In this document: positions 2,893 through 52,460 of the stretch, in pieces
Layout of the letters: every line of letters begins with the position of its first letter
Position numbering within the stretch: the stretch's first letter is position 1
From: Pseudomonadota bacterium
GTDB taxonomy: Bacteria > Pseudomonadota > Alphaproteobacteria > SHVZ01
NCBI GenBank assembly: GCA_016195085.1
Contig: JACQAG010000038.1
Coordinates: 1-64,000, forward strand
Direction of reading: 5' to 3'
DNA: 64,000 nucleotides
Program-made: the position numbers and the translations under genes
Notes under the pieces: model-generated
Database searches by the model: none
Seen by the model: only the letters and a program-made list of their open reading frames with translations
Told to the model about the DNA's origin: nothing

Positions 2893-2927
2893 CGGTTTCC
2901 TCCCGTTCGTGTCTTGGCCGACGATCG

Positions 2928-4523
2928 TCAGCTCTTGGAGATATTCCAGAACACCAGCACCGCCCCGCGCAGCACGCCCTCGACGTTCTTGCGCCAAGCG
3001 AAGGGAGGTTCGAACTGGCCGAGGAGCGTATAGGGCTGCATCTCCATCAGGCGCTTGTGCAGGACCTCCATCGCCGCCTTGCGGCCGGCGTCGTCGGACG
3101 CGGCGACGAAGGCGGCGCGCAGCTTCTCCGTCTCCTCATCGCAAGGCCAGCCGACCCAGTTGCTCTGGTCGCAAGACATGTTGGAGCCGATATTGGTCAG
3201 GGGATGATGGAAGGTCGTGCCCGTCCCCCAGCTGGTGAACATGTTCCAGCCGCCCTGCGCCGGCGGGTCCTTCTTGGTCATGCGGGTGACGACGCTGCCC
3301 CAATCGTTCACCTGCATGTCGACGTCGACGCCCATCTCCTTCAGGCGCCCGGCCGCCACCAGCGCCATTTGGCCGATCTGCGGAATCTCGTTGGTGGTGA
3401 TCAGGAGGAGCTTCTCGCCCTTGTAGCCGGCCTCGGCCATCAGCTGCTTGGCCTTGGCCAGATCGGCATGCCGATAGGGCTCGGACCCGACCTCGGTCGC
3501 CCAGGGCGCGTCGCAGACGAAATAGGCGTAGCAGACCTTCCACCATTTCTGGTCCCCATAGGCCGTGCGCATGAAGTCGCGCTGGTCGAAGGCGACCGCG
3601 AGCGCTTGGCGCGCCTTCACGTTGTTGAACGGCGGATACAGGCTGTTGACCCGGAGAAAGCCGAAATTGCCGAAAGGCGGCAGGGTCTTCACCACGATGT
3701 CCGGATTCTTCTCCAAGGTGCCGAGCATGTCGTTCGAGGGCGAATCCCAGAGATCGACCTCGCCCTTGGCGAGGGCCGCTGCGACGGTGCCGGCATCGGG
3801 AATGACGTTGAACTCGACCCTGTCCACCTTCGCCACCTTGCCGCCGGCAAGCCCGTCGGGCGGCTCCGAGCGGGGCACGTAGTCGGTGTTCTTGTCGTAG
3901 ATCACCTTGTCGCCGGGGCGCCATTCCGCCCGGTTGAACTTGAACGGTCCAGAGCCGATCGCCTCGGTGATCGGCTGGAACGGATCGGTCATCGCTACCC
4001 GCTCGGGATAGATGGCCGGCATCTGTCCGCCGCCGGAGCCGAGCGTGAACTCGACGAAGCCATAGGGCTGCTTCATGGTGATGGTGAAGGTCTTGTCGTC
4101 CACCGCCTCCATCGAGGCGATGCTTTTGCCCAGACTTGCACCCATGACATCGCGCTTCATCCAGCGCGTGAGCGAGGCGATCGCGTCCTTGGTGGTGACC
4201 GGTTGGCCGTCATGCCACTTCTGTCCGGGCCTGAGCGTCAACGTGTATTTGAGCTTGTCCGGCGAGACCGTGTAGTCGCTCACCATCTGCGGCTTGGCCG
4301 CGAGCTTGAAGTCCCAAGAGAAGAGCGTGTCGTAGATGAGCAGCGCGTGCATCTTGGTGATCTGCACCGAGACCACATGGGTATCCAGCACCTTGACGTC
4401 GGCCTGCGGGACGACGCGCAGCACCTTCTGCTGCGCGTCGGCTTGCGAGGGGCCAAGCGCCAGCGCGCCGGCGACGGGAAGGGCGGCGCTCAGCCGCAAG
4501 AAGGTCTTCGATCGGTTCGCCAT
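2928..4523 (-). CDS. ABC transporter substrate-binding protein, family 5 (copy 2)
   Basis: A 531-residue SBP_bac_5 protein with a signal peptide (MANRSKTF start, cleavage near QADAQQK). It shares the layout of copies 1 and 3: an IYDTLFSWD segment, YTLTLRPGQKWHDGQ, VTTKDA, TRWMKRD, NTDYVPRSEPPDG, and the CYAYFVC cysteine pair. It looks the most diverged of the three. The ATG at 4523 is preceded by GAGGAGACGAGG. It is the first gene of the leftward operon and diverges from the first dimethylformamidase-like pair across a 285-bp gap, so the two transcription units may be co-regulated (inference). Confidence 0.92.
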   Translation of the reverse strand: MANRSKTFLRLSAALPVAGALALGPSQADAQQKVLRVVPQADVKVLDTHVVSVQITKMHALLIYDTLFSWDFKLAAKPQMVSDYTVSPDKLKYTLTLRPGQKWHDGQPVTTKDAIASLTRWMKRDVMGASLGKSIASMEAVDDKTFTITMKQPYGFVEFTLGSGGGQMPAIYPERVAMTDPFQPITEAIGSGPFKFNRAEWRPGDKVIYDKNTDYVPRSEPPDGLAGGKVAKVDRVEFNVIPDAGTVAAALAKGEVDLWDSPSNDMLGTLEKNPDIVVKTLPPFGNFGFLRVNSLYPPFNNVKARQALAVAFDQRDFMRTAYGDQKWWKVCYAYFVCDAPWATEVGSEPYRHADLAKAKQLMAEAGYKGEKLLLITTNEIPQIGQMALVAAGRLKEMGVDVDMQVNDWGSVVTRMTKKDPPAQGGWNMFTSWGTGTTFHHPLTNIGSNMSCDQSNWVGWPCDEETEKLRAAFVAASDDAGRKAAMEVLHKRLMEMQPYTLLGQFEPPFAWRKNVEGVLRGAVLVFWNISKS

Positions 4524-4808: not shown

Positions 4809-5135
4809 ATGCGCGACCGCGACGGTAATCTCGCCCTCCGCCTCGATCCGACCCGGCTCGAGCTCGCTCGGGAATTCCGGAAGAAGCCGTTCGGCGGCCA
4901 CACCCCGGCGCTGCAGGAGCTCTTGAACCTCATGCGCTCCGCCCCGATCGAAGGAAAGCACTTCCTCTATATGACCAAGGCGCACCGGGAATGGACCTTG
5001 GCCCGCATGTCCGAGACCCTGCCCTTGCGCCCGATCCTCCTCGGTCCGGTCTTCACCCGCATCGAAGACGCGGAATGGCACGTCTTCAAGCTGCGCTGGC
5101 ACGCGATGACCGGCCAGGCGCTGGCGATCGACTGA
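4809..5135 (+). CDS. N,N-dimethylformamidase-like small subunit (copy 1)
   Basis: A 108-residue soluble protein strongly similar to the one at 13185-13487. Both share LDP(T/S)RLELAREF(R/K)KKPFG at the N-end and a C-terminal EWHVFK...LRW..(M/L)TGQ.L.ID block. Each precedes a ~745-residue protein of the dimethylformamidase large-subunit family. In characterised DMFases a short subunit (about 130 residues) pairs with a ~760-residue catalytic subunit. The match to the small subunit rests on size, position and the WxVFKLRW block from memory. Start choice is weak: no clear Shine-Dalgarno precedes 4809, and the copy-2 homologue begins about eight residues later in the alignment. Confidence 0.8.
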   Translation: MRDRDGNLALRLDPTRLELAREFRKKPFGGHTPALQELLNLMRSAPIEGKHFLYMTKAHREWTLARMSETLPLRPILLGPVFTRIEDAEWHVFKLRWHAMTGQALAID

Positions 5136-5139
5136 GACG

Positions 5140-7377
5140 ATGGCGGCCGTCCTTGGATATGCCGATCGTCAGAGCTTGCGCGCCGGCGAGGCCATCGCCT
5201 TCAAGGTCTGCTGCGATGGCGCCTCCACCTACCGCGCCGAGATCGTGCGCCTCATTGCGCCAGAGGTCTTGCCCGGCCCCGATGCGCCCGAGTTCCGCTT
5301 TGAGGCCATGGCGAGCCCGGCCGACGGCGAATACGAGGCACGCCATCAGGACACGCCGGTCGGCTCCTATGGGCTGATCCAAGCATCACCGAGCTTCGCC
5401 GCGATCGGCAGCTTCACGCTCGCGGCCTTTCTGTGGCCGACCACACCGGGCAAGGGCGAGCAGGCCGTTCTCGGCACCTGGTCGCGCGCGTCCGGCCGGG
5501 GCATCGGCCTCCATCTCGATGGCGACGGCGCGCCGATGCTGGTGCTGGGCGGCGGCGAGACGATCTCCTTGGGTGCCGCTCTGCCGGCGCGCCGCTGGTC
5601 CTTCATCGCCGCCACCTACCGAGCGCGCGACCGCACGGTCACCCTCTATCAGAGGCAGGTCGAGACCCACCACCTGGATGCTGCCGATCCCATGGGCCGC
5701 ACCGTCACGGCGGCGAGCAAGCCCTTGCATGGGACGGGCCCCCTGCTCATCGCCGCCGCCGCCGGCGGACATTGGCCGGATGGGCGCATGCGCACGGTCC
5801 GCCACTACAACGGCAAGATCGAGCGCCCGACCCTGCTCGAGGGGGCGCTCACCCTCACCCAGCTTGAAGCCCTTGCCAAAGCCGGACCGGCCCGGCCGGC
5901 GCAGAGGGCGGCGATCAGCGACTGGGATTTTTCGCGCGGCATCGACGGCGAACGCCTCGTCGACCGCGGCCGCCATCGCCGCCATGGCAAGACCGTCAAT
6001 CTTCCCACCCGTGCCGTCACCGGATCGAATTGGCAGGGAACCCGCCATGACTGGCAAGCCGCGCCGGAAGAATATGGCGCGATCCATTTCCACGACGACG
6101 ACCTCTACGACGCAGGATGGCAGACCTCGTTCCGCCTGAGCGTGCCCAAGACCTGGAAGAGCGGCGCCTACGCCGCGAGGCTGACGGCCGGAGCGTCGGA
6201 ATTCTGGGTGCCGTTCTTCTTGCGCCCGGCGCGCGGCGCCGCCAAGGCCAAGACGGCGTTCCTGGCACCCACCTGCACCTACGCCGCTTACGCGAATTTT
6301 CGCGCGCGCGTGAGCGGCCGTTGGAGCGAGCTCTACCACGGTCGGCTGACGGTGCTGGATTCGACCGACTGGCTGATGCAGGACTACCCGGAGATCGGCT
6401 CCTCTACCTACGACGTGCATTCCGACGGCAGCCTCGTCATCTATTCCTCGATGCTGCGCCCGGTCACCAACTTCCGTCCGACCGGCCGGATCTACAAGTT
6501 CAACCAGGATATGCTGATTTTGGCCTGGCTCGAACGTCAGGGCATCGCCTATGACGTGGTCGCCGACGACGATCTGCACCGCGAGGGTATCGCGGCCCTC
6601 GCCGACTACAGATGCATCATCACCGGATCCCACCCGGAGTACTACACGACGGCCATGCTGGATGGGCTGGAGGCATTCCTCGGCCAAGGCGGCAGGCTCA
6701 TCTATCTCGGCGGCAACGGCTTCTATTGGCGGACCGCCTATCACAATACGCTGCGCGGCGTGGTCGAGGTACGCCGGGCCGGACAAGGCTTCCTCGGCAA
6801 CAACACCGAAGCCGAGAGCCATATGAGCTTCACCGGCGAGGTCGCCGGCACCTGGACCCGGGTCGGCCGGCCGCCGCAGCTCATCGCCGGTGTGGGCTTC
6901 ATCACCCAAGGCTTCGATGCCTGCGAAGGCTACCGGCTGAAACGGGCGAGCCGCGACCCCAGAGCCGCTTTCGTCTTCGCCGGCGTCGAAGGCGAGATCG
7001 TCGGCGATTTCGGCATGCTGCAGAACGGCGCCGCCGGCTACGAAGTCGACCGTGCCGATGCCGCTCTCGGCACGCCCGTCCATGCGCTGGTGCTGGCATC
7101 CTCCGAGAACCATTCGAACGTCTACGAGATCTCGGTGCCGTCCTTCATGGATCTGGTGCCGAAGCGGGCAGAGACCGCACCCGATCCGATCCGCGCCGAT
7201 ATGGTGTTCTTCGAGATCCCAGGAGGGGGGGCGGTGTTTTCCACCGGCTCGATCGCCTGGTGCGGTAGCCTGTCCGCCCGCGGCTACGATAACAATGTCG
7301 AGCGGATCACCCGCAACGTGCTCATGCGCTTCGTCGATGCCAAACCGTTCATCATGCCGAAACCGCCAAGCCCATAG
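5140..7377 (+). CDS. N,N-dimethylformamidase-like large (catalytic) subunit (copy 1)
   Basis: A 745-residue protein starting 4 nt after the small-subunit stop codon. Residues ~85-215 look like a LamG/jelly-roll domain (SFTLAAFLWPTT...RRWSFIAATYRARDRTVTLYQ). The rest matches the dimethylformamidase beta-subunit C-terminal family. Known Paracoccus DMFase binds mononuclear iron through two Tyr and one Glu (Tyr399, Tyr440, Glu521, as I recall). Candidate equivalents here are Tyr384 in TYAAYAN, Tyr424 in STYDVHSDG and Glu500 in GSHPEY, with similar spacing (40 and 76 residues). Other conserved blocks are HFHDDDLYDA, GVGFITQGFDAC, SENHSNVYE and GGAVFSTGSIAW. The real substrate may be another amide. 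Confidence 0.87.
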   Translation: MAAVLGYADRQSLRAGEAIAFKVCCDGASTYRAEIVRLIAPEVLPGPDAPEFRFEAMASPADGEYEARHQDTPVGSYGLIQASPSFAAIGSFTLAAFLWPTTPGKGEQAVLGTWSRASGRGIGLHLDGDGAPMLVLGGGETISLGAALPARRWSFIAATYRARDRTVTLYQRQVETHHLDAADPMGRTVTAASKPLHGTGPLLIAAAAGGHWPDGRMRTVRHYNGKIERPTLLEGALTLTQLEALAKAGPARPAQRAAISDWDFSRGIDGERLVDRGRHRRHGKTVNLPTRAVTGSNWQGTRHDWQAAPEEYGAIHFHDDDLYDAGWQTSFRLSVPKTWKSGAYAARLTAGASEFWVPFFLRPARGAAKAKTAFLAPTCTYAAYANFRARVSGRWSELYHGRLTVLDSTDWLMQDYPEIGSSTYDVHSDGSLVIYSSMLRPVTNFRPTGRIYKFNQDMLILAWLERQGIAYDVVADDDLHREGIAALADYRCIITGSHPEYYTTAMLDGLEAFLGQGGRLIYLGGNGFYWRTAYHNTLRGVVEVRRAGQGFLGNNTEAESHMSFTGEVAGTWTRVGRPPQLIAGVGFITQGFDACEGYRLKRASRDPRAAFVFAGVEGEIVGDFGMLQNGAAGYEVDRADAALGTPVHALVLASSENHSNVYEISVPSFMDLVPKRAETAPDPIRADMVFFEIPGGGAVFSTGSIAWCGSLSARGYDNNVERITRNVLMRFVDAKPFIMPKPPSP

Positions 7378-8431: not shown

Positions 8432-10027
8432 ATGAAGCTGAATCCAACCGCCGTCACCGGGCTCGCATCGATGTCGCTGGCGCTCGGGCTTGCGAGCGCT
8501 CCGGCCCTTTCAGAGACCCCGAAGAATACGCTGGTGGTGGTGCCGCACGCCGATCTGCGCATCCTCGATCCGCTGCAGGCGGCGGCGACGATCACCATCA
8601 TGCACGCCTCCAACATCTATGACGAGCTGTTCGCCTGGGACAAGGAACTGCAGCCGAAGCCGCAGATGGTGGGCGACTACCAGGTCTCGGCCGACAAGCT
8701 CACCTACACCATGAGCTTGCGCCCCGGCCTCAAATTCCACGACGGCACGGCGGTCACCACCAAGGACGTGGTCGCCTCGGTCGATCGCTGGATGAAGCGC
8801 GATGGCGTCGGCAAGAAGCTGGCGGAGGTCACGGCCTCGTTCACAGCCACCGACGACAAGACCTTCGTCTTCAAGCTGAAGCAGCCCTATTCCTGGGTCG
8901 AATACTCGCTCGGCAACCACGCCGGCAACTATCCCGCGATCATGCGCGAGAAAGAGGCGAAGACCGACCCGATGACGGCGGTGACCGAGACCATCGGCTC
9001 CGGCCCGTACAAATTTTCCAAGGAAGAATGGAAGCCCGGCGCCGAGGTCGTCTACACCAAGAACACCGACTACGTGCCGCGCTCCGATCCGCCCGATGCG
9101 ATGGCCGGCGCCAAGCTGGTCAAGGTCGACAAGATGATCTGGAAGATCATCCCCGACGCGCAGACCTCGGCCTCGGCGCTGATCGCCGGCGAAGTCGACC
9201 TGATCGATTCCGTCAACGCCGACGTCGTACCGCTCCTGGAGAAGAACAAGGACGTGGTGGTCTCGAAGATTCCGCCGGTCGGCGGCTTCGGCGCGATCCG
9301 GCCGAACGCGCTCAACCCGCCCTTCAACAATGCGAAGGCGCGCCAGGCGCTGTGGATCCTGACCGACCAGGAAGACTACATGCGCGCTTCCTTCGGCGAG
9401 CAGAAGTGGTGGAACAAGTGCTTCTCCTACTTCGTCTGCGGCTCGATCTACGGCACCACGGCCGGCTCGGAAGGCTTCCAGAAGGCCGACCCGGCCAGGG
9501 CGAAGAAGATGTTCGAGGAGGCCGGCTACAAGGGCGAGAAGATCATCATCACCTCGACCAAGGAGATTCAGAATATCGGGACCCAGGCCGAGGTGCTGGC
9601 CGGCGCCTTGCGCAACATCGGCGCCAATGTCGACATCGAATGGGCGGATTGGGGCACCACCTTGACCCGCTTCCTCACCAACAAGAACCCGGTCGGCCAG
9701 AGTGGCGGCTGGAGCATTTTCACCACCACCAACTCCTGGTCGACCTGGCACAATCCCCTGACCAATGTCGGCGTCATCCTGACGCCGGAGGGGAGCTGGG
9801 CCGGCTGGCCGAGCGACGAGCTGGGCGAGAAGCTCCGAACCGAGTTCATCCAGGCCCAAGACAAGGCGTCCCGCATGGCAGCGCTCGACAAGCTGTCCAA
9901 GCGCATGTGGGAAGTGGCCCCCTATGTGGTGACCGGACAGTTCGATGGACCTTATGCCTGGCGGAAGAACGTCGTGGGCGTGCTGCCGACCTCGAAGCTG
10001 GCGCTCTGGAACATCGGCAAGGAATAG
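8432..10027 (+). CDS. ABC transporter substrate-binding protein, family 5 (copy 3)
   Basis: A 531-residue periplasmic binding protein with a signal peptide (start MKLNPTAVTG, cleavage near APALSETPK). It is clearly closest to copy 1: both share VPHADL..LDPL.AAATITIMH and SWVEYSLGNHAGN.PAIMREKEA. The C-x5-C pair falls at Cys330/Cys336. The ATG at 8432 follows GAGGGAG. A possible extended -10 (TGTTAGCAT, about 8365-8373) lies 60 bp upstream; the same 9-mer occurs near 13086 before the second DMFase-like pair. No importer membrane genes adjoin it. Confidence 0.92.
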   Translation: MKLNPTAVTGLASMSLALGLASAPALSETPKNTLVVVPHADLRILDPLQAAATITIMHASNIYDELFAWDKELQPKPQMVGDYQVSADKLTYTMSLRPGLKFHDGTAVTTKDVVASVDRWMKRDGVGKKLAEVTASFTATDDKTFVFKLKQPYSWVEYSLGNHAGNYPAIMREKEAKTDPMTAVTETIGSGPYKFSKEEWKPGAEVVYTKNTDYVPRSDPPDAMAGAKLVKVDKMIWKIIPDAQTSASALIAGEVDLIDSVNADVVPLLEKNKDVVVSKIPPVGGFGAIRPNALNPPFNNAKARQALWILTDQEDYMRASFGEQKWWNKCFSYFVCGSIYGTTAGSEGFQKADPARAKKMFEEAGYKGEKIIITSTKEIQNIGTQAEVLAGALRNIGANVDIEWADWGTTLTRFLTNKNPVGQSGGWSIFTTTNSWSTWHNPLTNVGVILTPEGSWAGWPSDELGEKLRTEFIQAQDKASRMAALDKLSKRMWEVAPYVVTGQFDGPYAWRKNVVGVLPTSKLALWNIGKE

Positions 10028-10066
10028 TCCGCGGAGCCTTTTGACTACGCTACCGGCCAAAATACG

Positions 10067-10164
10067 ACCCTCACCCCGCCCCTCTCCCGCGATGCGGGAC
10101 AGGGAGTAAGACTCTTGCCGCGATTGCCCCCTCTCCCGCACCGCGGGAGAGGGATGGGGTGAGG
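10067..10164. repeat. Dispersed palindrome, ACCCTCACC family (long form)
   Basis: The outer arms ACCCTCACCCC and GGGGTGAGG hold two inner hairpins, CTCTCCCGC/GCGGGACAG (imperfect) and CCCTCTCCCGC/GCGGGAGAGGG. It separates the binding-protein gene from the aminotransferase gene on the same strand. Confidence 0.8.
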
Positions 10165-15756: not shown

Positions 15757-15758
15757 AT

Positions 15759-15863
15759 GCCCCCACCCCGGCCCTCCCCCGCCGAGGACGGCGAGGGAGG
15801 GAGCAAGAAATGTCCCTCTCTATTCCCTCCCCCACGCATGTGGGGGAGGGTTAGGGTGGGGGC
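15759..15863. repeat. Dispersed palindrome, GCCCCCACCC family
   Basis: The outer arms GCCCCCACCC and GGGTGGGGGC flank two inner hairpins built from CCCTCCCCC / GGGGGAGGG-like halves. A near-identical architecture stands at 52356-52460. It begins just after the large-subunit stop codon and could terminate or stabilise that transcript (inference). Confidence 0.8.
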
Positions 15864-15922
15864 ACGCGACCAGATATGATTTCGATCTTGCACTGACTGC
15901 ACTATCCTAGAGGCATCACCCC

Positions 15923-37818: not shown

Positions 37819-38718
37819 CTACTGGGCCGCCTCTCCGATGGAGGCCACCCACGCCTCGCAGCAACCCTTGGCGAGGCCGCGGATGCGGCCGAGATAGGCG
37901 GCACGCTCGGTCACGCTGATGACGCCGCGGGCATCCAAGAGATTGAACAGATGGCTCGCCTTCAGGCACTGGTCATAGGCGGGCAGCGGCAGCTTCACTG
38001 CCAACAGCGCCTGGCACTCCGCTTCGGCATCGGCGAAGTGGCGGAACAGTTTCTCCGGATCGGCCCGCTCGAAATTGTATTGGGAGAACTCGCGCTCGGC
38101 CTGCAGGAAGACGTCGCGGTAGGTCTTGCCGCCTTGATCCTTCGGCACGCCATCCCAATCCAGGTCGAAGATGCTGTCCACCCCCTGGAGATACATGGCC
38201 AGCCGCTCGAGCCCGTAGGTGAACTCGACCGGCACCGGGGCGCAGTCGAGGCCGCCCACCTGCTGCATGTAGGTGTACTGGCTCACCTCCATGCCGTCGC
38301 ACCAAACCTCCCAGCCCAAGCCCCAGGCGCCGATCGCCGGGTTCTCCCAGTCGTCCTCGACGAAGCGGATGTCGTGGCGCTCCGCCGACAGCCCGATCCG
38401 CTCCAGGCTCCCCAGATACAGCTCCTGGCTGTCGGTGGGCGAGGGCTTCAGGATCACCTGGAACTGGTAGTAGTGCTGCAGCCGGTTGGGGTTCTCGCCA
38501 TAGCGCCCGTCCTTGGGCCGGCGCGAGGGTTGCACATAGGCGCATTTCCAGGGCTGGGCCCCGAGGGCGCGGAGCGTGGTCGCGGGATGCAAGGTGCCGG
38601 CGCCGACCTCGACATCATAGGGCTGCAGGATGACGCAGCCCTGCTCCGCCCAGTAGGTCTGAAGCTGGAAAATCAGGCCTTGAAAGCTGGTCGCAGCAGC
38701 CGGACGGCTTCGCGCCAT
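37819..38718 (-). CDS. glyQ: Glycine--tRNA ligase alpha subunit
   Basis: A 299-residue catalytic subunit of glycyl-tRNA synthetase. [41 protein letters not shown] and the [31 protein letters not shown] block are characteristic. I start at the ATG at 38718 (GGGAGA ribosome site, family-typical N-end) rather than at longer in-frame options. First gene of the glyQ-glyS-ppdK run. Upstream, 38719-38995 holds no gene I can support. Confidence 0.96.
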
Positions 38719-38995
38719 GCCGCGTCTCCCCGGCTCATATTGCGGTGCGGAAAATAGACATCGCCCGGCGGCTGGGTCAAGCATGGGGCGGCACTTGGGG
38801 GCGGTGTCCCATCCCGCGCGTGCCCGGGACCGGGACGACGGTACGGCCGTCAGCCTCGCTCGAAGCCTGTCCCTCCCAGCGCGTGCCCGGCGCGGGGACG
38901 CCGGGACTGGCCTCGCGCCCCCCACAGCGAGGCCCATGAGACTAGCCGTGCCGCTCCGAATTCGAAGCCTCGAATCGTGGTGGATAATGGGGATT

Positions 38996-39038
38996 CTTAG
39001 CGGCTGAAATCCACCGCCACCGTGTTGCCGCCGCTCAC
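38996..39038. repeat. Partial copy of the 3' end of the dehydratase gene (repeat A)
   Basis: These 43 bp match 39653-39695 at 40 positions. Read on the minus strand both encode [13 protein letters not shown] and a stop codon, and the three differences are synonymous. The two copies bracket the low-GC gene at 39035-39631 exactly. The copy is therefore a gene-end remnant, not a random repeat. Confidence 0.85.
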
Positions 39039-39631
39039 GCTGAGCGTTTCGTGGCCTGTCGTTCCAGGTACGTCTTTACGATCATCAGCCGATTTAGGAT
39101 CCATGCCCAAAAGGCAGTACGCACGGACACGGATTGAGCCGTGAAGTGCCTGTCGAGGGTGTCTCGAAACCGAATACAGGCAACTTGGCGCCGTTCCCGT
39201 TCTTTTTTTCGGCTCGCGTATCGTAGAAAAACTCCCATTTGCGGGCTAACGGTGAGCTCACCAGCTCGCGCCTTCATCAAGAACATGTATTCTGCAATAC
39301 AAAACATGATTGCTTCATCTTGCGTTGCTACAATCGAGTCAAGATCGACAAGCTCGTTCGCACTTTGCACGTGCTTCAACGGATTGGCCGTACGGTCATT
39401 GAACTCTCTCCAGAGTTTTTCGGGAGGATAGCCGCATTCTTTGCTGATCGCCGAGAAAGCAGTCGAAACCGACTTTGCATTCTCATTCTTGTTCAAGTCC
39501 CGCAATATCTGAGAGGCGGGAAACAGAAGCGAGGCGACTGCAATGGGATCATGGCCCAGTAGGTAACTGCGAATTGCAGCGTTGACCTGTCGACGAGCGA
39601 TCTCGATTTTTTCAATCTTTGCCAAATTCAC
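39035..39631 (-). CDS. Hypothetical protein, probable foreign insert
   Basis: A 198-residue protein, basic at the C-end ([19 protein letters not shown]), without signal peptide; I do not recognise the family. It starts with GTG at 39631 (the GAG before it is a poor ribosome site; a TTG two codons later is an option) and its stop codon lies inside repeat A. Base composition is unlike its neighbours: two 60-base stretches inside it count 48 % and 43 % GC, against 68 % for one in the adjacent dehydratase gene. No integrase or transposase is beside it. It looks acquired by transfer. Confidence 0.75.
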
Positions 39632-39652
39632 CTCGGCGGGGATACAGCCCGA

Positions 39653-39695
39653 CTTAGCGACTGAAATCGACCGCGACCGTGTTGCCGCCGCTCAC
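39653..39695. repeat. 3' end of the dehydratase gene, matching repeat A
   Basis: This is the real C-terminal coding end and stop of the dehydratase-like gene. It matches 38996-39038 in 40 of 43 positions. Together they form direct repeats flanking about 614 bp. Confidence 0.85.
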
Positions 39696-40607
39696 CATGA
39701 CGCCGACGCGCTCCTTTGGCTTAGGCTGATAGCCGCCGGACAAGAGTGCGGCGAAGGCGGCCGCCCCGCCCGGCTCTGCCACCACCCGGAGGGTCTTCCA
39801 CAAGGCTTCCTGGGACCGGCGGATGGCATCGTCGCCGACCAGCACCACCCGCTCGATATGGGCCTGGGCGATCGGGAACATGAGGGTGCCCACCCGGCGG
39901 GGTGCCAGCGAGTCGGCGGCGATTCCGCCCGCTTCGGCATCGACCGGCTTTCCCGCCGCCAAGGCCCGGGTCAGGGTCGGGGCGGCTTCCGGCTCGACGC
40001 CGATCACCTTGACCCGGCCCTGAAACCACGCAGCGATGCCGCCGATGAGCCCGCCGCCGCCGACCGCGACCAGGAGCGTGTCGAGCTCGGGAACTTGGCG
40101 GTCGAGTTCGACCCCGATCGTGCCTTGGCCCAAAAGCGTCTCTTCCTGATCGAAGGCATGCACCGCCATGGCGCCGGTCTTGGCCATCCAGCGCTCGCTC
40201 TCGGCCAGCGCATCGGCATAGCGCTCGCCGCCGACCACGAGGTCGGCGCCGTAGTCGCGGATCCGCTGCACCTTGGCGAGCGAGGCGATGCTGGGCACGA
40301 AGATCTTGGCCGGCACGCCCAATTTCATCGCCGCATAGGCAACGGCGGCGCCGTGGTTGCCGCCCGAGGCCGCCACCACGCCCGGCTCCGGCACCTGGCG
40401 CGACAACAGGCCGGTGAAGGCGCCCCGCGCCTTGAACGAGCCGGAATGCTGCATCAGCTCCAGCTTCAGATGGAGCGAGCCCGGGGCCAGGCCGAAATCG
40501 GCGGCATCGAGCTGGATGACCGGCGTCAGGCGGATATGCGGCCGGATGAGCGTCTCGGTCCGGGCGATCCGTTCCGGGCTGATCGTGGCCACGCGCGTCT
40601 CGGTCAT
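39654..40607 (-). CDS. Threonine/serine dehydratase-like PLP enzyme
   Basis: A 317-residue fold-type II PLP enzyme. The Schiff-base lysine is in SGSFKARGAF, the substrate loop is ASGGNHGAAVAYAA, and the glycine-rich phosphate loop is VGGGGLIGGI. It ends in [13 protein letters not shown] with the late Ser/Gly motif. It lacks the C-terminal ACT regulatory domain of biosynthetic IlvA, so it is a catabolic-type threonine/serine dehydratase or a related racemase/hydroxyaspartate enzyme. Its 3' end is duplicated beyond the low-GC gene. Confidence 0.88.
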   Translation of the reverse strand: MTETRVATISPERIARTETLIRPHIRLTPVIQLDAADFGLAPGSLHLKLELMQHSGSFKARGAFTGLLSRQVPEPGVVAASGGNHGAAVAYAAMKLGVPAKIFVPSIASLAKVQRIRDYGADLVVGGERYADALAESERWMAKTGAMAVHAFDQEETLLGQGTIGVELDRQVPELDTLLVAVGGGGLIGGIAAWFQGRVKVIGVEPEAAPTLTRALAAGKPVDAEAGGIAADSLAPRRVGTLMFPIAQAHIERVVLVGDDAIRRSQEALWKTLRVVAEPGGAAAFAALLSGGYQPKPKERVGVMVSGGNTVAVDFSR

Positions 40608-52353: not shown

Positions 52354-52355
52354 AA

Positions 52356-52460
52356 TGCCCCCACCCCGGCCCTCCCCCGCCTTCGGCGAGGGAGGGGGTG
52401 ACGATGCGTTTTCACTCCCTCCCCCATGCGTCAGCGTGGGGGAGGGCTGGGGTGGGGGCA
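52356..52460. repeat. Dispersed palindrome, GCCCCCACCC family
   Basis: TGCCCCCACCCCGGCCCTCC at one end and the complementary GGGCTGGGGTGGGGGCA at the other enclose two hairpins (CCTCCCCCGCC/GGCGAGGGAGG and CTCCCTCCCCCATGCG/CGTGGGGGAGGG). It is the twin of 15759-15863 and lies between preA and the amidohydrolase gene. Confidence 0.85.

Follow-up and report, generated by a model that had tools for sequence, protein, structure and literature searches.

A 657-bp single-gene unit between two copies of a dehydratase gene end as a candidate minimal or relic integration

Islands that integrate at the 3′ ends of tRNA and tmRNA genes leave a restored target gene and a displaced fragment of it, which together bound the foreign DNA. 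Such islands have been mapped by Islander, which requires an integrase (PMC4383910). Here, we describe a locus in a 64-kb window (i.e., the whole stretch of DNA that was analyzed) that resembles site-specific islands in having a restored gene end, a displaced repeat of that end in direct orientation, and foreign, patchily distributed cargo between the two. It differs from them in that the target is a protein-coding gene and the unit is only 657 bp long, with one gene and no integrase within. The type of scar is known, while a single-gene, integrase-less unit at the end of a protein-coding gene is an unusually small and unusual variant.

The unit also resembles integron cassettes in consisting of one, probably promoterless, ORF; unlike in a cassette, no strong attC-like hairpin was found at the end of this ORF, and its bounding repeat is the coding tail of the neighboring gene. 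A third likeness is to prophage or satellite cargo located beside attL or attR, a position occupied by one relative of the gene carried here (in an Ilyobacter prophage), with another lying past the tail genes on a phage contig; the unit itself, however, has no phage gene.

The duplicated dehydratase gene end and the DNA it encloses

The target gene is an intact dehydratase gene with glyQ as its downstream flank, and the locus comprises the following features.

37819..38718, minus strand: glyQ, glycyl-tRNA synthetase alpha subunit, downstream flank (PF02091, E=2.5e-142)
38996..39038, minus strand: repeat copy B, the displaced (distal) dehydratase 3′ end (self-comparison and codon reading)
39035..39631, minus strand: orphan cargo ORF of low GC, from a HEPN-like family (198 aa from GTG; 196 aa from the likelier TTG at 39625)
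39653..39695, minus strand: repeat copy A, the restored (proximal) dehydratase 3′ end (self-comparison and codon reading)
39654..40607, minus strand: serine/threonine dehydratase, PLP-dependent, PRK08246 subfamily, intact, the target gene (PF00291, E=6e-65; NF006094, 436 bits against a cut-off of 331)

Comparison of the whole window against itself revealed copies A and B as 43-nt repeats in the same orientation that are identical at 40 of 43 positions (E=1.7e-10). The repeated block begins abruptly and ends one nucleotide past the dehydratase stop codon. All three differences between the copies are synonymous third-position changes, an outcome with a probability of ~0.015 if changes were random, and both copies encode the same 13 C-terminal residues followed by a stop. 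A sequence-only reading of this DNA had described the repeat in these terms (43 bp, 40/43, one C-terminus, three synonymous changes), and self-comparison together with codon reading bears it out. No further copies of the repeat were found elsewhere in the 4.8-Mb genome. Direct repeats of this kind, separated by 200-5000 bp, are scarce: some 754 kb of comparable sequence yielded only six, and dehydratase tails accounted for two of them. We found no convincing terminal inverted repeats of transposon type at the unit and identified no att core structure at the repeats. The stretch from glyQ to copy B contains an imperfect, tandem-like short repeat (38805-38851 and 38868-38914, 77%). Elsewhere, the window contains two related palindromic repeats that are about 78% alike (15757-15864 and 52355-52460) and three paralogous stretches of 1.4-1.6 kb that are 67-70% alike, one of them inverted (1274-2701, 2917-4338 and 8524-10104).

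A single ORF fills the interval between the repeats, leaving no space for another notable gene, and its stop codon runs into the beginning of copy B. The earlier length of 198 residues holds if this ORF starts at the GTG. The TTG at 39625 (MAKIEKIE..., 196 aa) is the likelier start, lying 5 nt after an AGG and matching the N-termini of relatives better; it is located ~28 bp past the dehydratase stop codon, in the same direction. The GC content of the ORF is 50.6% overall and about 47.5% in its middle, compared with 69.9% for the dehydratase and 66.4% for the window, and no other segment of equal length in the window is as low. By codon position its GC content is 55, 42 and 55%, while third positions of the dehydratase reach 88%. 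The 43-48% GC that the sequence-only reading gave for sampled stretches is slightly low for the ORF as a whole. As that reading had also stated, ORF inspection found no integrase or recombinase within the 657-bp unit. Six tyrosine recombinase matches lie on other contigs of the same genome; some of these are presumably Xer proteins, and one that acts in trans on the unit could be among them, although none was tied to the dehydratase-end site.

We next compared the target gene with its orthologues. The same-family genomes contain no close orthologue of this dehydratase (best match 41%), and in their readable loci a different gene, HIT-like by eye, adjoins glyQ. From other genomes we collected 80 dehydratases of 65-76% identity, 78 of which were readable at the tail (L065 and L099 were left out of the count because their end frame gave no conserved tail). 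Within the available sequence, 77 of these 78 have a single tail, with second-best matches of 21-27 of 42. The exception, a Rhodospirillales MAG (L061), carries a second tail 1110 bp further on (4811-4936 and 5921-6046). The two copies are 87% identical over 126 nt, and most of the changes are nonsynonymous. This has the look of an older duplication in decay and is not clean support for the same mechanism. A VOC-family gene lies between the two L061 copies; it is an ambiguous case of the different cargo between dehydratase tails that the sequence-only reading had proposed to look for, the copy being a decayed one of 126 nt. The second L061 copy is joined head to head to another gene at that gene's truncated end. 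No integrase was found in the 80 dehydratase loci, and the orphan family adjoined none of the orthologues examined.

The orphan family, its locations and its possible likeness to HEPN proteins

The orphan protein belongs to a sparse, undescribed family; none of the libraries searched (Pfam, NCBIfam, PHROGs and PADLOC) assigned it to a known one. With the orphan as query, neither viral nor genome contigs yielded anything close, the family profile had no meaningful match among PDB sequences, and a degenerate pattern for the dehydratase tail had no match among viral contigs. Profile searches recovered distant relatives in about 1-2% of the class and phylum genomes sampled and on nine plasmids, while the same-family genomes examined had none. 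The family shares the conserved motifs RQ...AI.LFF...DP.S and N-x2-K-H.

Several relatives are located beside attachment sites, in what is a small sample of locations. The Ilyobacter relative lies 31 bp from a repeat comprising the 3′ part of a tRNA-Thr gene and the bases that follow; the other copy of this repeat (about 96 nt, 85%) is some 41 kb away beside an integrase, and the pair bounds a prophage. A second relative (G609) is within an island bounded by tRNA-Pro end repeats that are identical at 50 of 50 positions and about 15 kb apart. Some cargo relatives sit in exactly the kind of gene 3′-end island described above. A third (G200) follows a tRNA-His gene and adjoins an apparently truncated gene, and no second tRNA-His end copy was found on its contig; this neighboring gene is AMP-ligase-like and appears to break off at the end of the relative (L157, 14664-15894). 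Another relative (G390) is an integron cassette that lies beside an integron integrase (TIGR02249, 450 bits against a cut-off of 265) and is flanked on both sides by attC-like repeats. The stop codon of this cassette gene overlaps the next attC-like repeat (L154, 7757-8444), and thus also lies at the edge of a recombination site, as in the unit. Plasmid-borne relatives are near integrase or recombinase genes, and on an IMG/VR phage contig a relative is located after the phage tail genes; beside it are an AAA ATPase weakly matching defense ATPases and an unnamed 200-aa protein (L150, 6058-9045). The relatives in G196, G173 and G578, finally, are found between ordinary genes without repeats.

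Structural models suggest a link between this family and HEPN proteins. AlphaFold models of the window protein and the Ilyobacter relative, built from three-row alignments, are both all-helical and of low confidence (mean pLDDT of 56 and 64). Among solved structures, the three best matches of the Ilyobacter model are all to the HEPN antiphage RNase AbiV (Z 8.0-8.4, rmsd 3.4-3.8, 120-124 residues), with HEPN toxins next (Z about 6), and the model of the window protein matches several HEPN structures (Z 6-7.5) amid unrelated helical bundles. Because helical bundles reach Z scores of 6-8.4 by chance, this likeness is suggestive only. Foldseek by itself returned no significant match, and HEPN_Apea matched 1 of 11 family members (E=0.0038) and not the window protein. 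The all-helical models thus give high ranks to HEPN RNases and toxins (AbiV, HEPN-MNT toxin and Csm6 HEPN), and in some relatives the conserved N-x2-K-H overlaps the R-N-x3-H motif of HEPN proteins (RNFFKH in L046 and L049). The window protein, in contrast, has ANPLKH at the aligned place and does not match the catalytic R-x4-6-H motif, the motif arginine being missing; it also lacks a partner gene and is too distant for Pfam. An active RNase is doubtful because of this ANPLKH sequence. The orphan probably encodes a HEPN-fold protein of an accessory, phage-defense type.

Explanations for the unit

Insertion at the gene end with restoration of that end is the best-supported reading, and we give the view of the 657-bp segment as an integrative unit, minimal or relic, at the dehydratase 3′ end a probability of roughly 55%, from a single case. 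Integration with a carried replacement tail would produce a restored gene, a displaced copy, coding-equivalent differences and foreign cargo, with the recombinase then acting in trans or lost. The sequence-only reading had suggested insertion and restoration, and the block end at stop +1, the shared C-terminus, the foreign cargo and the 77 of 78 single tails all favor it. The relatives are divided: those at the duplicated gene ends that bound a prophage and an island, and the one in an integron, favor insertion, and those between ordinary genes without repeats speak against it.

Such an insertion may have started from a circular DNA that carried the HEPN-like cargo gene and a foreign, coding-equivalent dehydratase 3′ end. 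This circle would have recombined with the chromosomal dehydratase 3′ end through a recombinase, most likely of tyrosine type, that was supplied in trans or has since been lost by internal deletion. A crossover inside the 43-bp block would leave the dehydratase with a complete C-terminus (copy A) and displace the native tail, presumably copy B, 657 bp downstream. Because the orphan ORF begins just past the restored stop codon in the same direction, transcription reading through from the dehydratase probably drives its expression, and the cargo may serve in defense.

The main rival, which we consider somewhat unlikely, is a single crossover by homologous (RecA-type) recombination, or an illegitimate event assisted by homology, with DNA of a related organism in which the orphan lay beside that organism's own dehydratase tail. 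This needs no site-specific recombinase and gives much the same picture: the repeat looks like a diverged, coding-equivalent homologue, its 43 bp, enough for some homologous recombination, may have been a short homology anchor, and the unit contains no recombinase. However, there is no reason to expect homologous exchange to halt one nucleotide past a stop codon, and three mismatches within 43 bp make the repeat a poor substrate for it. Furthermore, the absence of the orphan family beside the dehydratase orthologues examined and the integrase-made boundaries of cargo-gene relatives both argue against this event.

It is improbable that the dehydratase, or its end, was duplicated in tandem and that the second copy was then mostly lost, with the orphan inserted or taking its place. 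The L061 locus illustrates how a dehydratase tail can persist downstream as a decayed fragment, but its changes are mostly nonsynonymous, and duplication with decay fits our locus worse because the distal copy has no nonsynonymous change. In addition, the remains of a second copy would amount to 43 nt with nothing beyond, and what the repeats enclose is a single intact ORF of foreign character that stops inside the repeat. A full-length second dehydratase beside the target gene, which the sequence-only reading had named as the mark of simple duplication, was not found.

An integron cassette at the dehydratase end is unlikely because no strong attC-like hairpin was found; folding at both repeats gave z scores of -1.4 to +1.2, in a test of limited power, as the attC controls from the G390 integron gave -3.8 and, for a shorter one, only -0.7. 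Finally, chance likeness or an assembly error is scarcely credible: although this is a draft genome of 95 contigs, the repeat has an E-value of 1.7e-10 in the window, it is too short and diverged for a misjoin of identical repeats, and the contig runs tens of kilobases beyond it on both sides.

Implications for the movement of single genes

The insertion reading can be extended, speculatively, to a class of single-gene, recombinase-less "gene-end cassettes". Each would carry the restoring tail of a host gene as its attachment site and be moved in trans. Defense-type genes would in this way spread one by one to the ends of protein-coding genes and ride there on host transcription. We regard the existence of such a class as a long shot.

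Should the unit prove to move in trans, it would rank as an extremely small integrative unit of the gene-end type and would reveal a route by which single defense-type genes enter chromosomes without a visible mobile element. The locus also points to a HEPN-like cargo family, so far undescribed, with repeated occurrences at prophage and tRNA-island attachment sites and in an integron. Displaced tails of protein-coding genes, beyond those of tRNA genes, may offer a search handle for more integrase-less insertions.
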